Assembly: GCA_017450695.1 (NCBI GenBank)
Contig: JAFSTA010000252.1
Coordinates: 1-40,756 of the forward strand
Direction: 5' to 3'
DNA length: 40,756 nt
Source: Kiritimatiellia bacterium
Lineage (GTDB): Bacteria; Verrucomicrobiota; Kiritimatiellia; RFP12; UBA1067
Of the stretch, positions 1-20,537 are shown in pieces (the first letter of the stretch is position 1; each line of letters starts with the position of its first letter). The position numbers and the translations under genes are program-made. The notes below the pieces were generated by a model, which saw only the letters and a program-made list of their open reading frames with translations, made no database searches and was not told where the DNA came from.

Positions 1-1007
1 ACCTCGGAGAAGTCGCGAATTTCGCGTCCGGTCAGTTTGGTGAACGCGCCGGGAGTTTTGCAGGTCTCCTGCACGTAGGCGCGGTAACGCGCCTGCAGTT
101 CCGGCGTGACGCGGACGCGCAACAGGCGGCGCGGGTAGGCGGCGTGGATGAAGGCATCCCACTGCGGACAGGCGGGATCGGCGAAACGCGCCAGCAGGCC
201 GTGCGCGACCTGATTCGTTCCCGCCTGATGCCGCAGGTAACTCTCCCACAACGGACGCGACTCGTAGGGAACGGTGCGCGACATCGGCGTGTCCGCCGTG
301 TCGCGGTACCATTTTTTGAACGACTGGTACAGCTCCATCTTCGGGTCGTTCACCGCGTAGTCCCAGGTGGGGTGGTGGAGCGGGGCGCGCTGCTGCGCCA
401 GCATCCGGATTCCGAAGAAGCTGGAATAGCGGATCGGCCATTCGGTGTTGAGCAGGGCGAGCGCGGCATCGCGACGCTGCGTCGCGGACATCCGCGCGAA
501 GGCGGCGGGATCGCGCTGGCGCACGCGCTCCTCGAAGGAGCGGCGGACAAAGCCCGCGACATCCCGCGCGTCGAACGAGCAGACCGAATTGCGGATGTCG
601 TACGAACGGTTGAACGTGGCGTAGTCCTCCGCCATGCGCTCCCAGCGGGTACGCGTGGCGGAATCGTCCAGTCCCGCCAGTTCCCGCGACGCGAACACGG
701 TCGCCTCCGGGTCGCGCGAGACGACGATCCAGCTGCTCCAGTGTTTCGGCGCATCGGGATAGACGGTCTCCGGGAAACGCGGATAGCAGCTGGCGACGTA
801 GCGCATATACCGGTCGTTGCGGTCCCAGACCGCGCGGAGGAAGGGCGCGAAACGGTAGTAGTCGTACCCGCCCGTCAGCGAGGCCGTCACCATCACCAGA
901 AACGGCCACACCATCGTGATGCCGCCGAGGATCAGCAGACAGTAAACCAAGGCGAGAAAGACTCTCGCCTTGGCTGTTTTGCGTTCAACTGGTAGCAGGA
1001 CTGCCAA
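1..1007 (-). CDS. Sugar ABC transporter permease, MalG-like (CUT1), N-terminal part
   Basis: The frame is open from a TTG at 1007 to the left edge (335 codons), so the gene is partial. After a short basic N-terminus there is one membrane segment (about residues 16-40) ending in PFLVMVTASLT. This resembles the first helix of MalG-type permeases, where a PF/W-M-x-x-SL motif leads into the periplasmic loop. The following 290 residues are hydrophilic and aromatic-rich and contain no further helix. Such a large extracytoplasmic insertion between helix 1 and 2 is inferred from family variants; ordinary MalG proteins lack it. The EAA loop and remaining helices would lie outside the window. The TTG directly follows the TAA stop of the upstream MFS gene, in the same frame, with an AGAAGG ribosome site 5 nt before it. 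Some other membrane-anchored protein with one N-terminal helix remains possible. Confidence 0.6.
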   Translation of the reverse strand, partial: MAVLLPVERKTAKARVFLALVYCLLILGGITMVWPFLVMVTASLTGGYDYYRFAPFLRAVWDRNDRYMRYVASCYPRFPETVYPDAPKHWSSWIVVSRDPEATVFASRELAGLDDSATRTRWERMAEDYATFNRSYDIRNSVCSFDARDVAGFVRRSFEERVRQRDPAAFARMSATQRRDAALALLNTEWPIRYSSFFGIRMLAQQRAPLHHPTWDYAVNDPKMELYQSFKKWYRDTADTPMSRTVPYESRPLWESYLRHQAGTNQVAHGLLARFADPACPQWDAFIHAAYPRRLLRVRVTPELQARYRAYVQETCKTPGAFTKLTGREIRDFSE

Positions 1008-7525: not shown

Positions 7526-10500
7526 TCACGGACGCACAAGCCACAAACCGAAGAGACCGCCAGCCGTGTTTCCAGGCTTCGGCACGAAGCGTATTTCCAC
7601 GCTCTTCTTGCCCGCGAGAATCTCGGCGGGAATGGCCGTCTCCGTGAACACGAATCCGGACCTTTTATTGTCCACAAGATTCTCGGTACGCACCATCTTG
7701 CCGTCCACCAGCACGTCGAACATGCGCTTCCCGCGTTCGCGCGCAAGGTATTTCGCCACAAGGGTACGTCCGCCGGGTGCGTCGCCAACAGCAAGGCGGA
7801 AGCTGAAGAAGCCGCCATTCCCCGCATGGCGCCATTTGTATTCATGGTACTCGCCATAGAGGCCGGTGCCCCATTCGGTATTCTCGCCCGCAAGACCGTG
7901 AGCCGTCTCGCTCGCGGCATCGCCAATCAAGACAGAGTCAACTGCCCGCCGTGCAAGTTCCGTTTCGCGCTCGTGCGCCTCGGCGAACGCCTTTTCCTCC
8001 TCCGGGGCAGCAAGTCGCCAGTACATCGTGTAGCGGCTGAAGTGGAGGTCATAAATTGGCTTGAGCAGGATGTCGCTACCCTTCAGACGGAACGCAATCG
8101 CGCCACCTGTCGTGCGTTCGAGGCAACCTGCGGGATCGGTCGCGGCCGCTACGGGAACCTGCGGCATCGGCAACGCTTTTCCGAGCCTCCAGCTCGATGT
8201 CGGACTCGACGGCGGATGGGCGATGTAGTCGCTTTGCTTCAATCCTTCGCTCCCGAGGTCACCTACGAGAAGCGTAGGACCGTAGAAGAACGCAACATAC
8301 TTCTTCGAACCGGGCAGGTATTCGGCGCGGAGCGACATCGGGAACTCGATGTCCATGCGGTCACCCGCCTTCCATTCGCGCTCAATGCAGACATCGGCAT
8401 CGCCATCTGGAATCATGCGCCAGATTACCCGCGCGCCGTTCACGTACACCGCAAAATCTTTTCCCGCCCAGAACGGACGGCGCACCTTCACCGTGAACTT
8501 GGGATCCTTGCCCACCTTCTCGATCTTGACGCATGATGACTCTCCGTAGGGAAACGCCGTCTCCTGGTGGAGCTTCACGCCACGAGCCTTCCAGTCGAGC
8601 GTCGCAGGCGCGAAGAGCTGTACTGCCACCGCACGTTCGTCCGGCGCGTGGGTGAACACCATCTGGCCGTACTTGCCGGGCGCCTCGAATCCGGTACCGG
8701 TGCAACACCACATGGAGTCGAACTCGTCGGAGTACGTACGCGACGCGCCGGGCTTCGGCGGGGTGTAGTAGATGGTACGGCCGAGGATCGGGTCATGCGT
8801 GGAGAGCAGATGGTCGAAGAGGACGCGCTCGTAGAAGTGGATTTTCCCCGCCGACGGTTCCGTCTCGAACAGAGCCTCAGTCTGGCGCAGCATGTTCACG
8901 GAGTTGCACGACTCCGGCCCACCGTCCAGGAAAAGCTTCTTCGCAAAGTCCTCCTTCGGGAACAGATGTTCACAATGCGAGTTGCCGCCGTTCGCCCAGG
9001 CATGGTCGCTGGCGAACGCATTCCATGCGTTGACGATCGAACGGTGCAGGCGCTCTTCGCCCGTGATGCGATAGACTCGCTCGAACCCGGTGAACTTCGG
9101 AATCTCGTTGTTCGCGTGGTGGAAACACAGGTGAGCCACATTTCCGTCCGCGAGCGGCGCGAGCATCCTCTCGTGGCAGAGGCGGCGCGCCCAGCGACGG
9201 TATTTCTCGTCGCCTGTCATCTGGAATGCGTAGGCAAACGTCTCCGGCAACGATCCGTGTTCGCAGTCGAGCACCTTCTGCAGCTGCACGTCGTCCAACT
9301 TTTCGACGATGGTGTTGCCGAACCAGTCGGAGAGACGCAGAAACACGCCCTTCGCCTTTTCGCTGTCCGTCGCAAGGTAAATGCGCCAAAGGCCGAGAAG
9401 AATCTTGTTCATCGTGTAGATGGGTTCGAATCGTCCGTTGATGAACGCACCGTATTCGGTTTTCGGGTTGATCTGGACGTCGATCTTTCCCGATGCAACC
9501 TCGGCGAACACCTTGCGTCCGTCTTTGACAGCAAGCGCGTAGCCGTCGCCATGCGCGTTCTGAACGGCATCCAGTTCATCAACAATGTAGAGAAGCCGTT
9601 TCTTCAGTTCCTCGTCGCCGGTCGCCTCCACAGTCATCGCCGCACCGGCCATGTAGAAGCCGAGGATGTGACCAGCGAGGTCAAGCCTGAGCTTCGGCGA
9701 CTCCCAACCATTGTATGGCTCAGCCTTCGGCTCCAATCCCGCCTCGCTGCGGAAGCGGCTCAAGAGACGGTCGGGGGCAAGGCGCAGAAGGTACTTCCTG
9801 TTCTGCTCCTGCTGCACCTGAAGCGGCCCGCCCGTGAGCCGTATGGCCGAAAGCGGGAACAGGGCCTCGCGTGCGCGTTTCGCCACACCTTCGTCCGTAC
9901 GGCGCTCCTGCCTACGCACCTCGTAGAGTTCGCCGTCACAGCGTTCGGGGAGGATGGCTTCGAAGCCATCCTCTTCGAGTTCACGGCCCGTCATCTCCGC
10001 CCAGCACTCGCCTTTCGCGCCCTTCAGGATGACGTACTTCGCTTCGGGATCAAGTCCGCGCACGGTTACGCGTCGCGACTGAACCGCCGCGTTGTGGCGA
10101 AACACGCCCACCAGTCCGCCGCTCTTCGTCTCGGTGTTGATGCGAGAGAAGCCGTCCCACGTACCCTCCTGCGGCTCTCCGAATCCGGGAAGGTCCTGGC
10201 GGAACGACATATATGCGTGCCGCGCCTCAAGCCCCTTGAGCCATCCCGACCACTCCCGGTATTCCGCCCTTTCGTCCGGCGTGAGCTGACGCGGGTCGCC
10301 CAGCATAATGGGAAGCGTCCCCGCGAGCGACTTGAAGGCGAGCAGATGGCGCGGCCCGTTCATGTGGAGGTTACCGATCACCAGCGACGTCGCCGGCAAC
10401 GCGGGCGTGCGCCCCCACGCAAGGCTGCGCACACAGAGCTGTCCGTCCTCGTTGGACTTGATGTTAGAGAGCCAATTACCCTCGGCATGCTTCGCAATGC

Positions 10501-12028
10501 CGTAGTCCATGAGGAAGGTCTTGCCCGCCGTCTCGAACGTGCAGTCGATGAAGAGGTCCGGTGCAGCCTCGTGCAGTTCGTCGAAGAGCTTCATGCAACT
10601 TGCGTAGATTTCCGCGTAGGAATCCTCGTGTCCGGCGTGTCCGGGATGGTCTTTCGCGTAACAGCCCGTCCGCTCATCGCCATAGACGTAGGCACTTGTG
10701 GCGATGGCGAGATCGAGCTTCACGTAGGCCAGACCGTGGTCCCTCACGAGACCGAGGATCCTGTCGCGGATGTATTCGCGCCACGGCGTCGCCATACAGG
10801 CCGTACGCGTATTCCCGTTCATGGTATGCAGGTTGGAGAGATTCCCCGCCTTGTCCTTCACGAACCATTCGGGATGCTCTTTCATGGGCGCGGACGAGGG
10901 ATCGGCCCAGGCGAGCGACAGCCAGAGTCCCGGCCTCATGCCCTTCGACTTGATGTAGTCGAAGGTGGGCTTCAGCCCGCCGGGGAACTTCTTCTCGTCA
11001 ACGGCCCAGTCACCCCTGCCGTACTTGCCGTCGGAGATGTTGATCTGCCAGCCGTCGTCGATGACGAACTCCTCGATTCCGCACTCCGCCGCCGCGTCGG
11101 CGAGTTCGCGGATGAGCTTCGCGTCGATATGCGTGGTAAACGGCACCCAGGTGTTATAGACGAACATGGGCTTCTTCGGTATCGCCTCCACGCGTACGCC
11201 CATATACTTGCGCACGTAGTCAGAGACCGCTCCCTCCACGGCGCGCGAGGGATCGGCGCACTTGGAATAGGGGGCTGTGAACACGGGCATGGCCGTCCAC
11301 TTCTCACCGGGTCTCAGGCGTTTGCTGAACGGATAGCGTTCGCCGGTGTGCGGCGTACCCGAAACGATAAAGCAGCCGTCCTGAAACGCCGTCGTGCGTT
11401 TCATGGTCGAGACGCCTTCGTTGCCGACGGCGATGCCGCACCGCATCGAGTAGTCGTGTACCACGACGAGCGGATCGTTCCAGTCGCCGATATAGACGCT
11501 GCCCTCCTCCCGGTAGCGTGCAAAGCGGCGCATGACGCGGGAGTTAATACATCCCAGCGTCGCGAGACGAAACGTTTCCACATCGACGTCCGTTATACAG
11601 AATTTCTTATCCGTCTTGTTCACGACGGCGAGCGTCTTGCGCACGAGTGCGAGGCCGGGATACGTGGTGTAGGCGAGTTCAATGCCGACACTGCCATCGG
11701 CGGAAACGCCGGTGACGGTCACGGTACACGATCCGTCCTTCGCCTTGTTCTTCGCGACCGCAACATCCTTCCACTCCGACCATCCGGCATACATCTTTCC
11801 ATCTACGCGAAACGCGAACTCGGGCGATCCGTTGCGCATGAACTCCGTGCCGTCGGCTGTCTTGTACGAACGGCCCAACAGTTTGCCGCCTCCGTTGTCA
11901 AGCGTCCGCGAGACAGCCCCGTCGGCGACCTTCAGCAGACCGTCGGCTGTGGCATCAAGCGCGATCCCCATGATGAGCGCGCCGCATACAATTACACGCG
12001 ACACCACTTTGGATTTCCAGTTGTTCAT
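7526..12028 (-). CDS. Secreted fusion: GH36-like alpha-galactosidase + GH127-type beta-L-arabinofuranosidase
   Basis: A 1500-residue protein with a signal peptide (residues 1 to about 29). Residues about 30-700 are a melibiase-type unit: a beta domain, then a barrel with FVIDDGWQ (about 322) and GLWLSLAWADP. YVKLDLA near 437 holds the expected nucleophile Asp, and SNED near 526 is the candidate acid/base. Residues about 725-1300 are a GH127/DUF1680 unit. It has the candidate acid/base Glu in CEHLF, then ESCNSVNML (about 1040) and WCCTGTG (about 1106). These are the Glu-Cys and Cys-Cys zinc and nucleophile residues of HypBA1-type enzymes. A C-terminal beta domain ends the protein. All key residues are present in both halves. 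The ATG follows AAGGAGG and overlaps the preceding mini-ORF stop. It is last in the GH97 operon. Single-activity relatives are known; the fusion is unusual. Confidence 0.88.
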   Translation of the reverse strand: MNNWKSKVVSRVIVCGALIMGIALDATADGLLKVADGAVSRTLDNGGGKLLGRSYKTADGTEFMRNGSPEFAFRVDGKMYAGWSEWKDVAVAKNKAKDGSCTVTVTGVSADGSVGIELAYTTYPGLALVRKTLAVVNKTDKKFCITDVDVETFRLATLGCINSRVMRRFARYREEGSVYIGDWNDPLVVVHDYSMRCGIAVGNEGVSTMKRTTAFQDGCFIVSGTPHTGERYPFSKRLRPGEKWTAMPVFTAPYSKCADPSRAVEGAVSDYVRKYMGVRVEAIPKKPMFVYNTWVPFTTHIDAKLIRELADAAAECGIEEFVIDDGWQINISDGKYGRGDWAVDEKKFPGGLKPTFDYIKSKGMRPGLWLSLAWADPSSAPMKEHPEWFVKDKAGNLSNLHTMNGNTRTACMATPWREYIRDRILGLVRDHGLAYVKLDLAIATSAYVYGDERTGCYAKDHPGHAGHEDSYAEIYASCMKLFDELHEAAPDLFIDCTFETAGKTFLMDYGIAKHAEGNWLSNIKSNEDGQLCVRSLAWGRTPALPATSLVIGNLHMNGPRHLLAFKSLAGTLPIMLGDPRQLTPDERAEYREWSGWLKGLEARHAYMSFRQDLPGFGEPQEGTWDGFSRINTETKSGGLVGVFRHNAAVQSRRVTVRGLDPEAKYVILKGAKGECWAEMTGRELEEDGFEAILPERCDGELYEVRRQERRTDEGVAKRAREALFPLSAIRLTGGPLQVQQEQNRKYLLRLAPDRLLSRFRSEAGLEPKAEPYNGWESPKLRLDLAGHILGFYMAGAAMTVEATGDEELKKRLLYIVDELDAVQNAHGDGYALAVKDGRKVFAEVASGKIDVQINPKTEYGAFINGRFEPIYTMNKILLGLWRIYLATDSEKAKGVFLRLSDWFGNTIVEKLDDVQLQKVLDCEHGSLPETFAYAFQMTGDEKYRRWARRLCHERMLAPLADGNVAHLCFHHANNEIPKFTGFERVYRITGEERLHRSIVNAWNAFASDHAWANGGNSHCEHLFPKEDFAKKLFLDGGPESCNSVNMLRQTEALFETEPSAGKIHFYERVLFDHLLSTHDPILGRTIYYTPPKPGASRTYSDEFDSMWCCTGTGFEAPGKYGQMVFTHAPDERAVAVQLFAPATLDWKARGVKLHQETAFPYGESSCVKIEKVGKDPKFTVKVRRPFWAGKDFAVYVNGARVIWRMIPDGDADVCIEREWKAGDRMDIEFPMSLRAEYLPGSKKYVAFFYGPTLLVGDLGSEGLKQSDYIAHPPSSPTSSWRLGKALPMPQVPVAAATDPAGCLERTTGGAIAFRLKGSDILLKPIYDLHFSRYTMYWRLAAPEEEKAFAEAHERETELARRAVDSVLIGDAASETAHGLAGENTEWGTGLYGEYHEYKWRHAGNGGFFSFRLAVGDAPGGRTLVAKYLARERGKRMFDVLVDGKMVRTENLVDNKRSGFVFTETAIPAEILAGKKSVEIRFVPKPGNTAGGLFGLWLVRP

Positions 12029-12110: not shown

Positions 12111-15100
12111 TTATTCCTTCTCCTGGGTGACATGATCGTCCTTGCCACGCAAAAAAGAAGCGGCGGCGGCAGGATGGTCGGTGTTGAGATAGTCCAGCCC
12201 AAGTTCCTGCGCCAGCTCCCACGCCTCCTTGTTGTCGGGGAAACCCCACAGACGGTAAGGAACGCCTTTGGCGTGGGCATGTCTGGCGGCATCGCGGATC
12301 TTGTCCTTGTCGGTTTCCGTCATCGCGCCGGAACGCCACGTGGTGTAGATGCGCGCATGGTCGCTGATCCACGAAACGCGCTTGTATTGTCCGCCGTCAA
12401 GCTTTCTGGAGGACGGAACACTGAAGAAAACAAAATCAGGATATGCAAGGAAATCCTTTATCTTGGAAATATCGCCGCCTACGCTCAACCTGACCGCCGA
12501 AGGGTTTCTGCCGATGTCAAAACATTCGCGGAACCCCTCCTGCTCAATCATCGTCAACAAGGCGTCAAGTGCCGGCTTCCCGTCCTTGAGATCGATAACC
12601 AGCTGAAGAGGCTTCCCGTTCGCGTACGCGCACCCGCCGTTTTTACGCACGACCTCGCGCAACGGCTCCAGGTAGAGGCGGCGGAGCGTGTTCTCTTTTT
12701 TCAGCTCTTTGCGAGAATGCGCCACCAGCAAATCACCGTCCACCCAAAACACGTCGGCCTCGATGGAGTCCGCTCCCGTCTCGTATGCGCCCCAGAACGG
12801 ACGCTTCTGTGCGTAGTCGTTGTGCGAATGGATCATGATCCGTTTCGAGAGCTCCAGCATCCAACCACGTTTGGGCGGAATGGGAATCGGCTCGCCGATG
12901 CGGAACGACCGCGCCTCTTGGAAGCCAGGAATCGGACGCGCCTCAAGCTTCATTGTCTGCGCCCGGTTTCCGAGCCACCTTCCGTCAATCTTGAGGTGTA
13001 CGGTGCGCGGCTTCGTCGAGAAGTTGCCGACGGCGATGAGCGCCTTGCCGCCGCGTAGGAACGCCGTCGCCTTCACATCGGGCGAATCGGTCTTCACAAA
13101 CGCGGATCCCTCCCAGTAGCCGGACATCCTCGCGTCCTCGATCCCGAAGTCCGCCCATGCCTTCCAGATCGCGCCCGGATTCTCCGCGAGACTCCCCTTC
13201 CCGTACCAGCGGCGGGTCGTACCATAGACCGCGCCGAGCCAAGGATTACCGCCGCCCTGCAGCATCTCGCCCATCTGCCCGAACGGAATCCCGGAGAACG
13301 TCACGAACCAGGTGTCGGAATCCATCTGGTCGTACTTGAACGACTCGCCGAACCAGATGCGGTCGATGTACGGGAAGAACTCCGTGTACTGGTTCATCGG
13401 TCCCTTGGAGTAACCAGTGTTGGAGTGGAGATCGACGAGCGCGCCGGGACGGTACTTCTCGATGATGCGACGCACCCGCTTCATCACCGTGCGGTCAAAG
13501 GCCACGTCGTCCATGTAGATGCCGTCGATCTTGTAGTTCTCGAACATCCAGCGCAGGCCTTCGAGATAGTAGTTGATCCACCGCGAATGGTGGCTGAGGA
13601 CGAACGCCGCATCCACATAGCTGCCGTCCCACATCCTCACGTACCACGCCGGACGGTATCCCTCGCCCACATGCTCCCAGAGCCACGGCGCACCGTGCGC
13701 ATTGCCGGGCGCGACGATCTCCCCGCCGAGACTCCTCAACGCCTGAAGCTCCGCGACATGGTTGGAGAGTTCCCGTATCGTGTAGTACAGCTTCACCTTG
13801 CGTCCCTTCTCATGCTGCGCGGCGACGTAGTCCTTCAGCTCCTTCTGCACGACGAACGGATAGTTGATCACGGGATTCAGCAACTGCGCGTGGTGGATGT
13901 TCACGATGTTCGCCCCATACGCGGCGGCCTCGTCGAACCGCGCCAGATCGGCGTGGAAGTACCGCTGCGAAAAATGCTTCTTCAGGTCAAGCGGCTTGAC
14001 CGGCGTGATGTTCAGATCAAACTCCCACTTGCGCGGCACTGCGGGAAGCGAAGTCTCGCCCGTACGGGCAACAACCGTCATCCCATCCGTGCCGCCGACT
14101 TCAATCCGCCCCTTGCCGCCGTTTGCCCACGCCTGCGGCGGCGCGTAGTGATACGACCTGTCCGCAATCAGCGGACCGTGGTACGCGCCGCCCCGGAACT
14201 CCACGTGCAGTCCCGCCTCCGGCCCGCCAGTCCAGTAGCTGTCATAGTAGCCGACCTTCCAGTCCCATGAATACGACTGCGGACGCTTCCCCCCGTCGTT
14301 CCATTGATACGCCGCGCCCATCATGTATTCCGACGCATACGGCGTGTACTCCATGATGAGCCGCACGTCCTTTACGGGAAGATCGCGCTTCGCCTCGTCC
14401 GCCACTTCCACGATGTACCGAATATGCCCGTCGAACTCCATCCGCCCCTTCACTGCGAACGCGATGCCGCCCGCGCGAGACTTTGCTGTCCACGCGACAT
14501 GCCCCGCCGTCGCACTCTCCAGCGAGAACTCTCCCGCACCGATTTCCGTCTCGCCCTTCTCGGTTACGACGGCAAAGCGTATCGGTGACTTCAGCACCTC
14601 TCGTCCATTGACCTTGATCGACGCCGGGAACCCGCTCTCCGCCAACATCACCGTCTTCCCCGATGCTGCCACCGCACGCGCCTCGCGATTGAACACCATC
14701 TCGCCGTAAGGTTTGGTGGGCGTGTCACCCTCGCCAATGCGCGAGTTGAGCCACCTGAGGCGCGAGTGTCGCCACAGTTCGCCGTCGCCATGGTCGCGCA
14801 CCGTCTCGTCCGCAACCGTTATCGCAAGCGAAATCTCTCGCGGGGCGAGCCCCTTCGCCGAAAGTGTTGCCATGCCGCGATAGACACCGGGAGTGGCGTC
14901 GGGCGGAATCATCACGCCGCACCAGAGCGGCTGTACGCGGTCCTCGGGAACATTCAGATCAATCTTCATCTGCGAGCCGTCCCAGTTCACCCCCACGGTG
15001 TTGAAACAGGTAATCGAGGCAGCGGAAATGGGAGGGACGCGCTTCGTCGCGTCCGTCGAATCTAAAACAAGATCCGAGAACTTCACCTGTACGCCCTCCA

Positions 15101-15863
15101 CCGCGCCGCCGGGCGTCCACAAGGCAATCTGCCACACGTAGTATTCATCCTTGAGAGCCGTGCCCGCGAACGAGTTCCGCGCCTCGACACCCTTCGCCCA
15201 CTTCACGGGAAGCCACGAGGCGGGATGGATCGGATTCGTGCGGTCTTCGGTGAACACCACAGGATTCTCGGGATGCGCACGGCGTAAGGCGTCTGTCTCC
15301 GCCACCGTGGCGCGGAGCCCCATCGGTGTCCATGCCTCGAACGCCGTGCGGCTCTCGAAGCGCAGGACATCCGCCTCGACTGGAGGACGGTATGCGTCGA
15401 ACGAATCAAGCCACTTATTGCCTTCCGAGTAATCCGGCTTCAAGTAGTCGTTCCAGAGCGGCTGGCTGCGTCCTTCGCTCGATCCCTTCCGCAACCGGTA
15501 CGGCATGTAGTAGATGAAGTATTCGCCCGTGCCCGACAACGGCTCGAACAGCACCTCGCCGCGTTCCGCCGTCACGTTGCGGGCGACGACATGCGCGACA
15601 TCCTTGCCGGTCGCGGCATCCCGCACGACGACGCGCTTGATATCCGGCTGCGGATCGGTACGCCGCCACTCAAGGATCGCGCGCGCCACCCTGACGGATT
15701 CGTTCACGCGCACGACCGCGCGGTGGTTGCCGAGTCCGTCCGCCGGCCACGGCTTCTCCGCCACCGTGAACGGCACGTCGCAAAACGCGATTCCCGCAAC
15801 TGCGACCGACATGCAGAGAATCGACTTCCCTACAATTCCACACATGCAATGATCAACTTTCAT
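12111..15863 (-). CDS. Secreted fusion: DUF6067 glycosidase-like protein + GDPD-like phosphodiesterase domain
   Basis: A 1250-residue protein with a signal peptide (about 1-30). Residues about 40-600 are beta-rich. A TIM-barrel part follows (about 620-920) with KIDGIYMDDVAFDRT near 780, whose Asp pair lies where related barrels keep catalytic acids. A short C-terminal beta domain ends in RGWMLELSK at about 1007. This is the architecture of DUF6067-type glycosidase-like proteins, whose activity I cannot state. Residues 1009-1250 are a second unit like glycerophosphodiester phosphodiesterases. Its HSHNDY, SIEADVF and LLVAH supply the His, Glu/Asp and His of that active site. The ATG at 15863 has AAGG seven bases upstream. 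It is the middle gene of the GH97 operon, 70 bp after GH97. Confidence 0.75.
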   Translation of the reverse strand: MKVDHCMCGIVGKSILCMSVAVAGIAFCDVPFTVAEKPWPADGLGNHRAVVRVNESVRVARAILEWRRTDPQPDIKRVVVRDAATGKDVAHVVARNVTAERGEVLFEPLSGTGEYFIYYMPYRLRKGSSEGRSQPLWNDYLKPDYSEGNKWLDSFDAYRPPVEADVLRFESRTAFEAWTPMGLRATVAETDALRRAHPENPVVFTEDRTNPIHPASWLPVKWAKGVEARNSFAGTALKDEYYVWQIALWTPGGAVEGVQVKFSDLVLDSTDATKRVPPISAASITCFNTVGVNWDGSQMKIDLNVPEDRVQPLWCGVMIPPDATPGVYRGMATLSAKGLAPREISLAITVADETVRDHGDGELWRHSRLRWLNSRIGEGDTPTKPYGEMVFNREARAVAASGKTVMLAESGFPASIKVNGREVLKSPIRFAVVTEKGETEIGAGEFSLESATAGHVAWTAKSRAGGIAFAVKGRMEFDGHIRYIVEVADEAKRDLPVKDVRLIMEYTPYASEYMMGAAYQWNDGGKRPQSYSWDWKVGYYDSYWTGGPEAGLHVEFRGGAYHGPLIADRSYHYAPPQAWANGGKGRIEVGGTDGMTVVARTGETSLPAVPRKWEFDLNITPVKPLDLKKHFSQRYFHADLARFDEAAAYGANIVNIHHAQLLNPVINYPFVVQKELKDYVAAQHEKGRKVKLYYTIRELSNHVAELQALRSLGGEIVAPGNAHGAPWLWEHVGEGYRPAWYVRMWDGSYVDAAFVLSHHSRWINYYLEGLRWMFENYKIDGIYMDDVAFDRTVMKRVRRIIEKYRPGALVDLHSNTGYSKGPMNQYTEFFPYIDRIWFGESFKYDQMDSDTWFVTFSGIPFGQMGEMLQGGGNPWLGAVYGTTRRWYGKGSLAENPGAIWKAWADFGIEDARMSGYWEGSAFVKTDSPDVKATAFLRGGKALIAVGNFSTKPRTVHLKIDGRWLGNRAQTMKLEARPIPGFQEARSFRIGEPIPIPPKRGWMLELSKRIMIHSHNDYAQKRPFWGAYETGADSIEADVFWVDGDLLVAHSRKELKKENTLRRLYLEPLREVVRKNGGCAYANGKPLQLVIDLKDGKPALDALLTMIEQEGFRECFDIGRNPSAVRLSVGGDISKIKDFLAYPDFVFFSVPSSRKLDGGQYKRVSWISDHARIYTTWRSGAMTETDKDKIRDAARHAHAKGVPYRLWGFPDNKEAWELAQELGLDYLNTDHPAAAASFLRGKDDHVTQEKE

Positions 15864-15933: not shown

Positions 15934-17919
15934 CTAGAACGGCGAGAGGCGGGCGGCAAATCCGCCGCCGGGGGCGAGAACAGCCTGTAGCGGCTCGCCG
16001 GATTTGACATTGAACGTGCGGCGAACATAATGCTCCGCGTTCACGTTTGCATCCGGCGCATCCTCGAAAACCTCCACCTTCCACATCCCGCCGCCGAGGA
16101 AATCGGTTGGCAGAGAAAGCTTGCGCGAGTCCCAGTTCGTGATCGCGCCGAGCCACCACACCTTCCCCTTCCGGCGGGCGACTGCGGCATACTCCCCGAT
16201 CTCGCCCGCAACGCCTCTCGTCTCGTCCCACACCGTGGGGACCTTCGTGAGAAACGCCGTGCATTCCGGCGCGGTACGGTACTGCGTAGGCGAGTCGCAG
16301 AGCATCTGAACGGGAGCCTCGAAGAGCGGGAAGAGCGCGAGCTGGTGGCAGCGTGTACCATAACAGGCGTTGGGTTCCTTTCCCTTCTGGAAATCGGGCG
16401 CGTCGAAGGCTCGGTTGCGCATCGCGCCGGGCGTGTAGTCCATCGCGCCGGCAATCATGCGCGTGAACACGAGATTCACATCGTTCTCAGTAACCACCTT
16501 CCGTCCGCCGATGGAGTGCCCCTGCTCAAGCCCGTACACGCCCTCGTAGTTGAGGACGTTCGGGAAGGTGCGGCAGAGACCGGTGGGCTTGTGGATGCCG
16601 TGGTACATGATGACGAGCCGCCGCGCCGCCGCGTCTGTCGCGGTCTCTTCGAGGAAGCGTTCGAGCTGCTGGTCGTCGCGGTTCATGAAGTCCACCTTGA
16701 ATCCCTTGGCTCCCATCGCCGCGTAGCGGTCGAAAATCCGAAGCCGCGCCTCGCGGTCGATGAGCGGCGCCCATGCCGCCCAAAGGATCACGCCCACGCC
16801 CTTCGCCTTCGCGTACTGGATCACGCCGGGCACGTTCACCGCCTCGCGCGGACGGTCGAGGTCGAGATGTTCCGACCATCCCTCGTCCATGATGATGTAC
16901 GAGATTCCGTTCGCAGCCGCGAAGTTCACGTACTCCTTGTACGTCTCGTAGTTGCAGCCCGTCTTGAGCCCCGGCACGTCGGTGATCTTGAAACCGTTCC
17001 ACCAGTCCCAGGCCACCTGCCCCGGTTTCACCCAAGACGAGTCCTTCAGGCGGCTCGGTTCGGCGAGGGCATAGACGGCGTCGCTCTCCACGAGACCGGC
17101 CGGCGCGTCGGCGAGAACGAACACGCGCCACGGGAACGCGCGCGTTCCCTTCGTCTTCGCGAGGTACGGATAGCGTGACTTCACGTTCGTCATGCGCCGC
17201 CCCTTCTCGACGTCCTTCGGTACGCCTGCCTGCCACGAGCGCAACATGTTTCTGTCGCCGCTGCGCCTGAAGAAGTTCAGTCCGGGATAGTCGAGCAGGT
17301 TCGACTCCGTCACGCACACCACGCCGACACCGCGCACCGTCGCCGTGAACGGAGTCATCACGATCTGCGGGTGGCCGGACTTCACGCTTTCCACCGGGCC
17401 GATCTTCGCGGGCTTCTCCCATCCCGTCTGGAAATGCCCCTCCTGCGTGTAGCACAACTCCGCGCCTTCAGGGAAACAGACGTTGGTGTCCTCCGCCGTC
17501 ACCGTGATCTCGTCCGGGAACGCCGTCTCGAACCGCCACGCCACGCCGTCGTTTCGCGCATGAAGGACGAGCGCCCATTCGCCGAAATCTACCCTCGTCT
17601 CGTTTGCGGCGAGATCAACAGCCGCCTTCTTGTAGAGCGGCGTGGCCACGCGCCCCTGAATCTGGCGCTTCGTCTCCTTCGGCGCGACTCCGGCGCGGCA
17701 GCCGTTCATGCGGCCGTGCTCCCGAGTGGTGAGGCCGATCCACGTGTCATCGATCACCGTCTTGCCGCGCCTCAGCACACGGTAGCGAAGGCTGTTCTCG
17801 GCGGTCAACAGCCTGATCTCGTTCAGGCCGTCTGGCGACTTCGCGTTGAACGTGCCGGGCAAAGGTGCCGCAAGCGTGGTGCATACGGCGGCAAACATGA
17901 GTATCAATTGACATTTCAT
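15934..17919 (-). CDS. Secreted GH97 glycoside hydrolase, probable retaining alpha-galactosidase
   Basis: A 661-residue protein, the usual GH97 length. The ATG at 17919 is preferred over an upstream frame extension because AAAGGAAA precedes it and it gives a signal peptide ending TLAAP. An N-terminal beta super-sandwich (SPDGLNEIRL, IGLTTREHG) is followed by a barrel with YIIMDEGWS near 345. GFKVDFMNRDDQ near 409 has an Asp at the nucleophile position of retaining GH97 enzymes such as the Bacteroides alpha-galactosidase. Inverting SusB-type enzymes use glutamates instead. It is first in an operon with two fusion enzymes and has a clear promoter. Confidence 0.9.
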   Translation of the reverse strand: MKCQLILMFAAVCTTLAAPLPGTFNAKSPDGLNEIRLLTAENSLRYRVLRRGKTVIDDTWIGLTTREHGRMNGCRAGVAPKETKRQIQGRVATPLYKKAAVDLAANETRVDFGEWALVLHARNDGVAWRFETAFPDEITVTAEDTNVCFPEGAELCYTQEGHFQTGWEKPAKIGPVESVKSGHPQIVMTPFTATVRGVGVVCVTESNLLDYPGLNFFRRSGDRNMLRSWQAGVPKDVEKGRRMTNVKSRYPYLAKTKGTRAFPWRVFVLADAPAGLVESDAVYALAEPSRLKDSSWVKPGQVAWDWWNGFKITDVPGLKTGCNYETYKEYVNFAAANGISYIIMDEGWSEHLDLDRPREAVNVPGVIQYAKAKGVGVILWAAWAPLIDREARLRIFDRYAAMGAKGFKVDFMNRDDQQLERFLEETATDAAARRLVIMYHGIHKPTGLCRTFPNVLNYEGVYGLEQGHSIGGRKVVTENDVNLVFTRMIAGAMDYTPGAMRNRAFDAPDFQKGKEPNACYGTRCHQLALFPLFEAPVQMLCDSPTQYRTAPECTAFLTKVPTVWDETRGVAGEIGEYAAVARRKGKVWWLGAITNWDSRKLSLPTDFLGGGMWKVEVFEDAPDANVNAEHYVRRTFNVKSGEPLQAVLAPGGGFAARLSPF

Positions 17920-17942
17920 CTGGACATTTCCTTTCGGGCGGT

Positions 17943-17972
17943 AGTATAGCAAAACCACGGCACTTCTGGCAA
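17943..17972 (-). promoter_or_regulatory. GH97 operon promoter
   Basis: On the minus strand TTGCCA (17972-17967), 18 bases, TATACT (17948-17943). The predicted leader is under 20 bases yet still holds the ribosome site. Confidence 0.65.
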
Positions 17973-18044
17973 TGCGCTGTCGGCGAGCGCATCTCCAGAA
18001 TTCACCGTAGTCCAGTCCCACCCAAACACCACCTCACCATCCAC

Positions 18045-18762: not shown

Positions 18763-18800
18763 GAAAGCGTCTCAACGAAGAAAGGATGGGGAATGTGGTG

Positions 18801-20537
18801 ATGAAAAATAAGATTGATGGGAATCCGTGTGGAACTCTGCTTCGCGTTGCAGGAATGGCATTGCTCGTGCTCGTCTTTTGCCGGGTGGTGTCGGCAGAAA
18901 ACGCGGCCCCTGCCGACGAGCTGGCGCGGCGCGGGGAGAAGAAGACCGAGAGCGTACCCGAAGCGCCGGAAGGATATCGGAGACCGAAGGGCTGGAAACC
19001 TGTTCTCTACCCGAAGAACCTGCGGCAGATCGCGAAGGATCATTCGGCGGAAACGATGGCTCGCGCGAAGGAGCAGATGGTGAAGGTCGATGCCGTAAAC
19101 GCCGCCGGGAAGTACAAGGCAACTGGCGTGTCGATGGATGCGCATCCCTGCCCTGAATGGTTCCTGGACGCGAAGCTCGGCATTTTCATCGACTGGGGAC
19201 TCTGGTCGCTCGCCTCGTGGTGTCCGTACGTGAAGGGGGCGCGGCTGTATCCAGACTGGTATGAGATGCGTTGCCGCCCCGACTATGCCGGTCCAGTCAG
19301 TACGCGTGCCTGGGACTACCATCGGAAGAATTGGGGCGAAGATTTCATGTGCGACCACTTCATAGACCTCTTCCGGGGGACGAAATTCGACGCGCCCTCG
19401 CTCGTGAAGCTCTTCGACGCCTGCGGCGCCAAGTATGTCGTGCCGTTCCTGAAGCATCATTCCGGTTTCTGTCTCTGGGATTGCTCCTACACGTTCCGCG
19501 ATTCGACCGACCAAGGGGCGCACCGCGACTTCGCGAAGGAGATGTCATCAGCCTGTCGCACCCAGGGGTTGAAGTTCGGCGCCTATGTTTCGCAGGCGGG
19601 CGAGTGGGAGTACCCCATCCTCCAGGACGACGGATCGATCAAGATCTGGAAGGAAGCCGCCGCGATGGTCGATTGTACACCAGACATGGAGTGGAAGGCT
19701 TCGGGCAAGATTGCCGTAAAGGACTTCGTGCGTGATTACATCGTGCCGCAGACGACCGAGTTCATCGATCAATACGACCCCGACATCCTCTGGTATGACT
19801 ACGACTGGGCAACCTTCGCCCACGAGAACGGCAGCTACGACATCACCGCTTACTTCTACAACAAGGCGGCGGGACGCAAAGAGGTGGTGTGCAACGACCG
19901 TTACGGCAAGGCAAAACCGGAGGAAATCGCAGGGCGCTTCACCAAGCGTCCACGTAACTGGTTGCGCACCGTACGCGGCGACTTCTTCACGGACGAGTGG
20001 GGAGACACGGAAGAGTGTCTCGACCCGGCGAAATGGCATCCGTGGGAGTCCTGCTCCGGCATCTCCAAGGCATACGGTAACCACTGGCAAGAGACGGCGG
20101 ACATGGTGATGTCCGAACGTGAGTTTGTGATTCATTTCGCGGATATCGTGGCGCGAGGCGGCAATCTGCTCTTGCTCGTGAACCTCGACCCGCAGGGCGA
20201 GATTCCTGCCGTGCAACGGGAACGCCTGTTGCAGATCGGAAAGTGGCTGGAACGGTACGGTGAAGCGATTTACGCGACGCGTATCCTTGCGCCGTACAAA
20301 ACGCCCGCGCTGAATTACGTGCAGTCGAAAGACGGTAAATTTGCGTATGTGATTGTCAAGGATCCAAAACCTGAGATCACGCTGGAATGTGCGCTTCCCG
20401 AAATGTCCCGCGTGACCCTCGTCGGTTCCGACCGGACGCTCGCCTCCTCACGGAGTGAAGACGGGAAAACCCTCGTCAAGCTGCCGCCCGATCTGGTTTC
20501 CTCCCCACTCCCGTTCGCGATCCGTATTCCCCGGTAG
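18801..20537 (+). CDS. Secreted GH29 alpha-L-fucosidase
   Basis: A 578-residue exoenzyme. An ATG at 18786 is also in frame, but it sits directly on the purine-rich AAAGG. The ATG at 18801 is at proper spacing from GGATGGGGA and gives a normal signal peptide ending VVSAENA. The barrel begins PEWFLDAKLGIFIDWGLWS, the hallmark opening of GH29. It continues with YVVPFLKHHSGFCLWDC, which carries the paired His of the substrate pocket. DILWYDYDW near 329 holds the nucleophile Asp, in a slightly unusual setting because a Tyr replaces the usual Gly. The end is a small beta domain. It probably removes terminal fucose from plant or host glycans. It is monocistronic. Confidence 0.9.
   Translation: MKNKIDGNPCGTLLRVAGMALLVLVFCRVVSAENAAPADELARRGEKKTESVPEAPEGYRRPKGWKPVLYPKNLRQIAKDHSAETMARAKEQMVKVDAVNAAGKYKATGVSMDAHPCPEWFLDAKLGIFIDWGLWSLASWCPYVKGARLYPDWYEMRCRPDYAGPVSTRAWDYHRKNWGEDFMCDHFIDLFRGTKFDAPSLVKLFDACGAKYVVPFLKHHSGFCLWDCSYTFRDSTDQGAHRDFAKEMSSACRTQGLKFGAYVSQAGEWEYPILQDDGSIKIWKEAAAMVDCTPDMEWKASGKIAVKDFVRDYIVPQTTEFIDQYDPDILWYDYDWATFAHENGSYDITAYFYNKAAGRKEVVCNDRYGKAKPEEIAGRFTKRPRNWLRTVRGDFFTDEWGDTEECLDPAKWHPWESCSGISKAYGNHWQETADMVMSEREFVIHFADIVARGGNLLLLVNLDPQGEIPAVQRERLLQIGKWLERYGEAIYATRILAPYKTPALNYVQSKDGKFAYVIVKDPKPEITLECALPEMSRVTLVGSDRTLASSRSEDGKTLVKLPPDLVSSPLPFAIRIPR

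Follow-up and report, generated by a model that had tools for sequence, protein, structure and literature searches.

A single open reading frame in a 40,756-nucleotide stretch of a Kiritimatiellia genome (hereafter the window) encoded a protein in which a half with the GH36 fold (N36) was followed by a GH146 half (C146). We propose that a ruminant-gut bacterium of the Kiritimatiellae type secretes this protein as a chimeric glycosidase, that the protein arose by a recent in-frame fusion, and that its two halves probably remove two different side-chain sugars from a single plant glycan. Taken as a whole, this proposal was considered fairly probable.

Organization of the Gene

The 1500 amino acids were encoded without a break from an ATG start (7526–12028, reverse strand; ORF translation). 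A Pfam search of the whole chain placed Melibiase in the N-terminal half and PF07944 in the C-terminal half, and both matches were far above the Pfam cut-off (Table 1). The exported single chain with two enzyme domains, as described in the original prediction, was thus real, with an unbroken frame, an export-type N-terminus and both domains matched. The accompanying claim that both catalytic sets were complete held for the C-terminal half and failed for the N-terminal half, which carried Asn522 at the GH36 acid/base position. The dN/dS ratios were 0.15–0.18 for the N-terminal half and 0.12–0.15 for the C-terminal half, which indicated purifying selection on both. The source genome was a metagenome-type assembly of 5.0 Mb in 287 contigs, of which the window was contig 164. 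Its closest named relatives were Kiritimatiellae metagenome assemblies, mostly from ruminant gut samples.

Table 1. Features of the fused gene and of its neighbours in the window.
Feature	Residues	Position	Strand	Basis
Signal-peptide-like N-terminus (MNNWKSKVVSRVIVCGALIMGIALDATAD)	1–29	11942..12028	-	Translation; putative cleavage site
N36, GH36-fold half	30–706	9911..11941	-	Pfam, VIA-align, column analysis
Melibiase	284–522		-	Pfam, 89.1 bits
N36 putative nucleophile, end of strand β-4 (K437-L-D439)	D439	10712–10714	-	Column analysis
N36 Glu	E499	10532–10534	-	Column analysis
N36 Asn at the GH36 acid/base position	N522	10463–10465	-	Column analysis
GH36 C-terminal domain	633–690		-	Pfam, weak match
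Linker (about QERRTDEGVAKRA)	707–719	9872..9910	-	Resembles neither parent gene
C146, GH146 half	720–1500	7529..9871	-	phmmer, Foldseek
PF07944, (α/α)6 catalytic domain	729–1121	8666..9844	-	Pfam, 296 bits
C146 predicted acid/base	E1020	8969–8971	-	Alignment to GH146
C146 predicted Zn ligand	E1039	8912–8914	-	Alignment to GH146
C146 predicted Zn ligand	C1041	8906–8908	-	Alignment to GH146
C146 predicted Zn ligand and nucleophile	C1108	8705–8707	-	Alignment to GH146
C146 predicted Zn ligand	C1109	8702–8704	-	Alignment to GH146
PF20736, GH127/146 middle β-sandwich domain	1134–1231	8336..8629	-	Pfam
PF20620, DUF6805 domain	1358–1495	7544..7957	-	Pfam
C146 stop codon		7526–7528	-	
GH123_N-type protein with C-terminal GDPD-like module (upstream, outside the fusion)		12111..15863	-	PF19543, 1102 bits; GDPD_2, 27.7 bits
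GH97 protein		15934..18021	-	GH97, 293 bits
GH29-type α-L-fucosidase		18786..20537	+	PF01120, 256 bits

The C-Terminal Half Belongs to GH146

The C-terminal half had been assigned to GH127, and both phmmer and Foldseek placed it in GH146 instead. Its best solved relative in phmmer was 5opj_A (BT0349, a GH146 enzyme from B. theta; E = 3e-117, residues 722–1484), and GH127 entries matched far more weakly and over part of the chain only. The AlphaFold2 model of this half had a mean pLDDT of 89.5, and ranks 1–6 of its Foldseek matches were all GH146, with GH127 lower. Membership in GH127, which would group this half with HypBA1 and BT3674, was ruled out by these two rankings. C146 was co-linear with BT0349 (5opj, 6yqh, 8qf8) over residues 722–1484 at 31% identity. 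Its identity with the GH127 enzyme HypBA1 (3wkw, 3wkx) was 14% in the fold search, although GH127 and GH146 have clan GH-P and the Zn–Cys mechanism in common (PMC10850190). Judging from the co-linear alignment, the DUF6805 domain of C146 would sit where BT0349 has its C-terminal jelly roll.

In Bll3HypBA1 (8k7x), E694 is the acid/base, E723, C725, C804 and C805 are the Zn ligands, C804 is also the nucleophile, and E578 is essential (PMC10850190); residue roles in the Zn/Cys/Glu centre were also drawn from PMC10728902. In the phmmer alignment, E694/E723/C725/C804/C805/E578 corresponded to E1020/E1039/C1041/C1108/C1109/E923 of C146, which made E923 the counterpart of the essential substrate Glu. 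All six were invariant or nearly so in 21 aligned sequences. C146 kept all the Zn/Cys/Glu catalytic residues of BT0349 and Bll3HypBA1, and the prediction of a complete catalytic set in this half was borne out. Given the fold and the conserved GH146 residues, C146 should be an active retaining β-L-arabinofuranosidase, in which the Zn-bound Cys1108 would attack the anomeric carbon and Glu1020 would act as acid/base, with release of L-arabinose. C146 differs from BT0349 and Bll3HypBA1 in being fused behind a GH36-fold half.

A GH36 Fold with an Altered Active Site

The N-terminal half had been described as a GH36-like α-galactosidase, and the fold was supported. Its model (mean pLDDT 73.9) aligned with GH36 α-galactosidases along its length with a VIA-align Z of about 32; the values for 2yfn were Z 32.6, 609 residues aligned and rmsd 3.7 Å. 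The GH36 layout was present, with an N-terminal β-supersandwich, a (β/α)8 barrel and a C-terminal β domain. N36 residues 25–708 shared this fold with AgaA/AgaB (4fnp/4fnq), LaMel36A (2xn0) and AgaSK (2yfn), and the strand-4 nucleophile and the DDGW substrate motif were also in common. The GH36 KxD nucleophile site was kept, and K437 and D439 were invariant within the clade of N36 relatives. The catalytic Asp expected near residue 437 was identified as D439, the likely nucleophile.

The acid/base site was different. The GH36 WxSD site at the end of strand 6 read W519-L-S-N522 in N36, and the Melibiase profile match stopped exactly at residue 522. The register of Asn522 against Asp was upheld by MAFFT alignments and, at prob 99.9, by hhalign profile–profile comparison with true GH36 of the same order and family. 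The second Asp, placed near 526 in the original prediction, was apparently D528 (in S525-N-E-D), which was replaced in several orthologues (L060, L053, L040). The CxxGxxR motif, which recognizes galactose in GH36 subgroup I (PMC5094572), was not found; N36 had C496-TF-E499-TA-G502 (CxxExxG) in its place. With neither the GH36 acid/base Asp nor CxxGxxR, the α-galactosidase label was unsupported, and on these residues α-galactosidase activity of the N-terminal half should not be assumed. Assignment as a β-L-arabinopyranosidase was rejected as well, with 26 bits against the NCBIfam BAD_1528 model at a cut-off of 1100.

As originally read, the architecture would be a normal GH36 α-galactosidase joined to a GH127 β-L-arabinofuranosidase, acting on a substrate in which α-galactose lies beside β-L-arabinofuranose. 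The fold, the Melibiase match, D439 and DDGW agree with it, but Asn522, the change of CxxGxxR to CxxExxG, and the grouping of the C-terminal half with GH146 by both sequence and fold made it very unlikely.

Since Asn522 occupies the usual acid/base position, proton transfer would have to come from another residue. Glu499 replaces the Gly of CxxGxxR directly after the predicted strand β-5 (493–498), and GH97 provides the precedent that makes it the residue to consider first as an altered acid/base. The GH97 members differ in the strand end that bears the catalytic carboxylate (β-4 Asp or β-5 Glu), and replacement of Gly by Glu where β-5 ends marks a switch of both the catalytic residue and the mechanism (PMC1249566, PMC2670981). 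A Glu has been gained at this strand end in N36 too; however, N36 retains the β-4 Asp and loses the β-6 Asp, and its fold matches GH36, not GH97. The pLDDT was below 50 at the active-site loops 444–459, 500–506 and 522–524, so that the role proposed for Glu499 is a guess from its strand position.

The N36 Clade

Members of the N36 clade were found in 31 of 388 sampled genomes of the phylum (about 8%), and most were stand-alone enzymes. The branch separating this clade from true GH36 was 1.8 substitutions per site long, and the split had a support of 1.0. Asn was present at 522 in all 43 distinct clade members covering the site, as against Asp in all 12 true GH36. In the same 43 members, N522 was accompanied by C411, C456, H461, H464, D495, E499 and R534, an invariant set that occurred in none of the 12 true GH36 of the same phylum.

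The change at the acid/base site has an engineered counterpart: the AgaA D548N–raffinose structure (4fnt) carries the same Asp-to-Asn replacement at the acid/base residue (549 in the numbering of PMC5094572). The N-terminal half might accordingly be a catalytically dead, sugar-binding module that steers the GH146 half. We regarded this as unlikely, in view of the invariance of D439, K437 and D324 across a clade with 20–25% identity, the joint rise of the new polar invariants, and the stand-alone state of most members. What we put forward instead, tentatively and with slightly less than even confidence, is that N36 represents an uncharacterised family of clan GH-D, in which the acid/base has moved from strand 6 to, for example, the strand-5 Glu499, an invariant cluster of Cys and His residues (C411, C456, H461, H464) has newly appeared, and the specificity is not for plain α-galactose. 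The cluster may bind a metal or form a disulfide.

If N36 is such a rebuilt family, the fusion would be its first with GH146. If active, the clade would represent a further rebuilt catalytic centre in the α-galactosidase superfamily, after GH97, and the clade is a larger point of study than the fusion. The Melibiase profile matches these proteins, so annotation by this profile would call them α-galactosidases despite the absent acid/base. In the searched open-access papers, we found no GH36 group described as carrying Asn in place of the acid/base; the Asn522-type clade may already be known elsewhere. A paralogue of N36 in another genome (G002, L040:4566–7382, reverse strand) was 45% identical and had an F5/8-type domain in front; its DDGW substrate motif was altered to FLADWATH, which suggested a different specificity.

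Origin of the Fusion

Among the 162 genomes of the order, N36 and C146 were separate genes in every other carrier, and the fusion was found in 0 of the other 161. The further loci scanned with both profiles, long GH127/146 ORFs of 13 genomes among them, likewise contained no such fusion. The separate genes of relatives were up to 84% (N36) and 88% (C146) identical to the halves in the window, and a scan of the named relatives' contigs recovered separate genes only. The source genome contained no second copy of N36 or C146. Separate genes in all other carriers, together with the lack of second copies, pointed to a young fusion of two co-occurring genes. Both genes were present in 10 genomes of the order against 1.5 expected (p = 8e-9, a value inflated by shared ancestry), and in G055 they were adjacent in reversed order.

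The N36 orthologues had their own stop at residue 706, except that those in L038, L039 and L079 ran on into a GDPD-like module, and the C146 orthologues had their own signal peptide at the start. The blastn similarity to relatives ended at 9920 on one side of the joint and at 9874 on the other, and the linker of about 13 residues was similar to neither parent gene. As judged from these boundaries, the fusion is in-frame and clean at both native ends. A misassembled contig that joined two separate genes might be suspected in a metagenome-type assembly of 287 contigs, with a fusion seen in one genome and known from the assembly alone. However, exactly the stop codon and the signal peptide were removed, in frame and with a short non-homologous linker, and a random join would hardly drop just these two. 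The joint sequence was unique within the source genome, no repeat and no shared 12-mer was found at the joint, there were no leftover copies, and the G+C content was similar in both halves. Misassembly was thus considered highly improbable. Near the joint and inside the N36 coding region, 24 bases (9950–9973) matched the opposite strand of themselves or their neighbour, i.e., were self-complementary.

The pairing had been said not to be known as a described architecture, and no description of a GH36-type domain joined to GH127/146 was found in the searched open-access papers. Among the best-scoring matches listed, the long GH127/146 ORFs (about 970–1670 aa, 13 genomes) contained no GH36 domain, and their partners were GH43, a second GH146, unassigned regions and, in one case, a histidine kinase. 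The architecture is one more lineage-specific CAZyme fusion. Two catalytic units in a single chain, with a different partner, are also known from RgAgaSK (GH36 plus sucrose kinase; PMC7688924) and occurred in a 1497-residue protein of genome G245 (L148:1245–5735, forward strand), another arabinose-related fusion, in which GH43 was joined to GH146. The histidine kinase case was a 1329-residue ORF of genome G152 (L153:4130–8116, forward strand) with a GH127/146-type domain and a C-terminal kinase (HisKA_3, HATPase). The catalytic motifs of its glycosidase domain were intact (PETCN, FWCC, GGNSVGEH), an arrangement that would suit a two-component system with a functional glycosidase domain as its sensor.

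Gene Context and Possible Substrate

Gene context was rejected as a guide to the substrate. The flanks of the separate genes varied by genome (GH29, FGGY kinase, GH43, hexokinase, M3 peptidase, MFS symporter), and no fixed arabinogalactan or extensin cluster was found among the relatives. In the window, the GH97 neighbour (15934–18021) is a better candidate than N36 for the α-galactosidase of the locus, judging from sequence comparison; it scored 600.8 bits against the NCBIfam retaining α-galactosidase model, below the cut-off of 800. With the altered galactose motif, GH97 next door, and no common substrate suggested by the relatives' flanks, no sugar was assigned to N36.

The target glycan would most likely be an arabinogalactan-protein or extensin. 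In arabinogalactan-protein side chains, Gal-α1,3 or Araf-β1,3 can cap Araf (PMC10850190), and in extensin, Ser-α-galactose adjoins Hyp-linked β-arabinofuranosides (PMC8012813). Of two paralogous enzymes, Bll3HypBA1 favours Araf in β1,3 linkage, and Hyp-linked Araf is the substrate of Bll4HypBA1 (PMC10850190). By analogy with these glycans, the earlier suggestion that α-galactose and β-L-arabinofuranose are neighbours in the substrate is plausible, and a secreted enzyme able to remove the two caps would be in keeping with a rumen bacterium.

Two plant-glycan enzymes that are joined here and apart in close relatives point to a shared substrate; the presence of the fusion in one genome only indicates the same pathway more than the same linkage. 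It is conceivable that the halves serve one pathway on different polymers, e.g., GH146 on arabinan and N36 on an unrelated α-glycoside, and were joined for co-secretion only. GH146 indeed has other partners in the phylum, namely GH43 (L148), a GH16-like domain (L050) and a second GH146 (L149), and a GDPD-like module replaces C146 behind N36 in relatives. However, the genes for N36 and C146 co-occur, and adjoin in one relative, and we considered separate polymers somewhat unlikely and action on a single glycan the preferred reading.

The GDPD-like module (HSHNDY motif) corresponded to residues 1008–1250 of the protein encoded at 12111–15863 (reverse strand). In its bacterial family this module swaps partners, being stand-alone or located N-terminally or C-terminally in secreted proteins (L038, L039, L079, L173–L181). 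It followed N36 in three relatives, and the window was the only place where it followed a GH123_N-type protein. In addition, genome G101 had a single open frame (L079:10094–14074, forward strand) that appeared to run from the last part of rpoB into the first part of rpoC, a possible rpoB–rpoC fusion.
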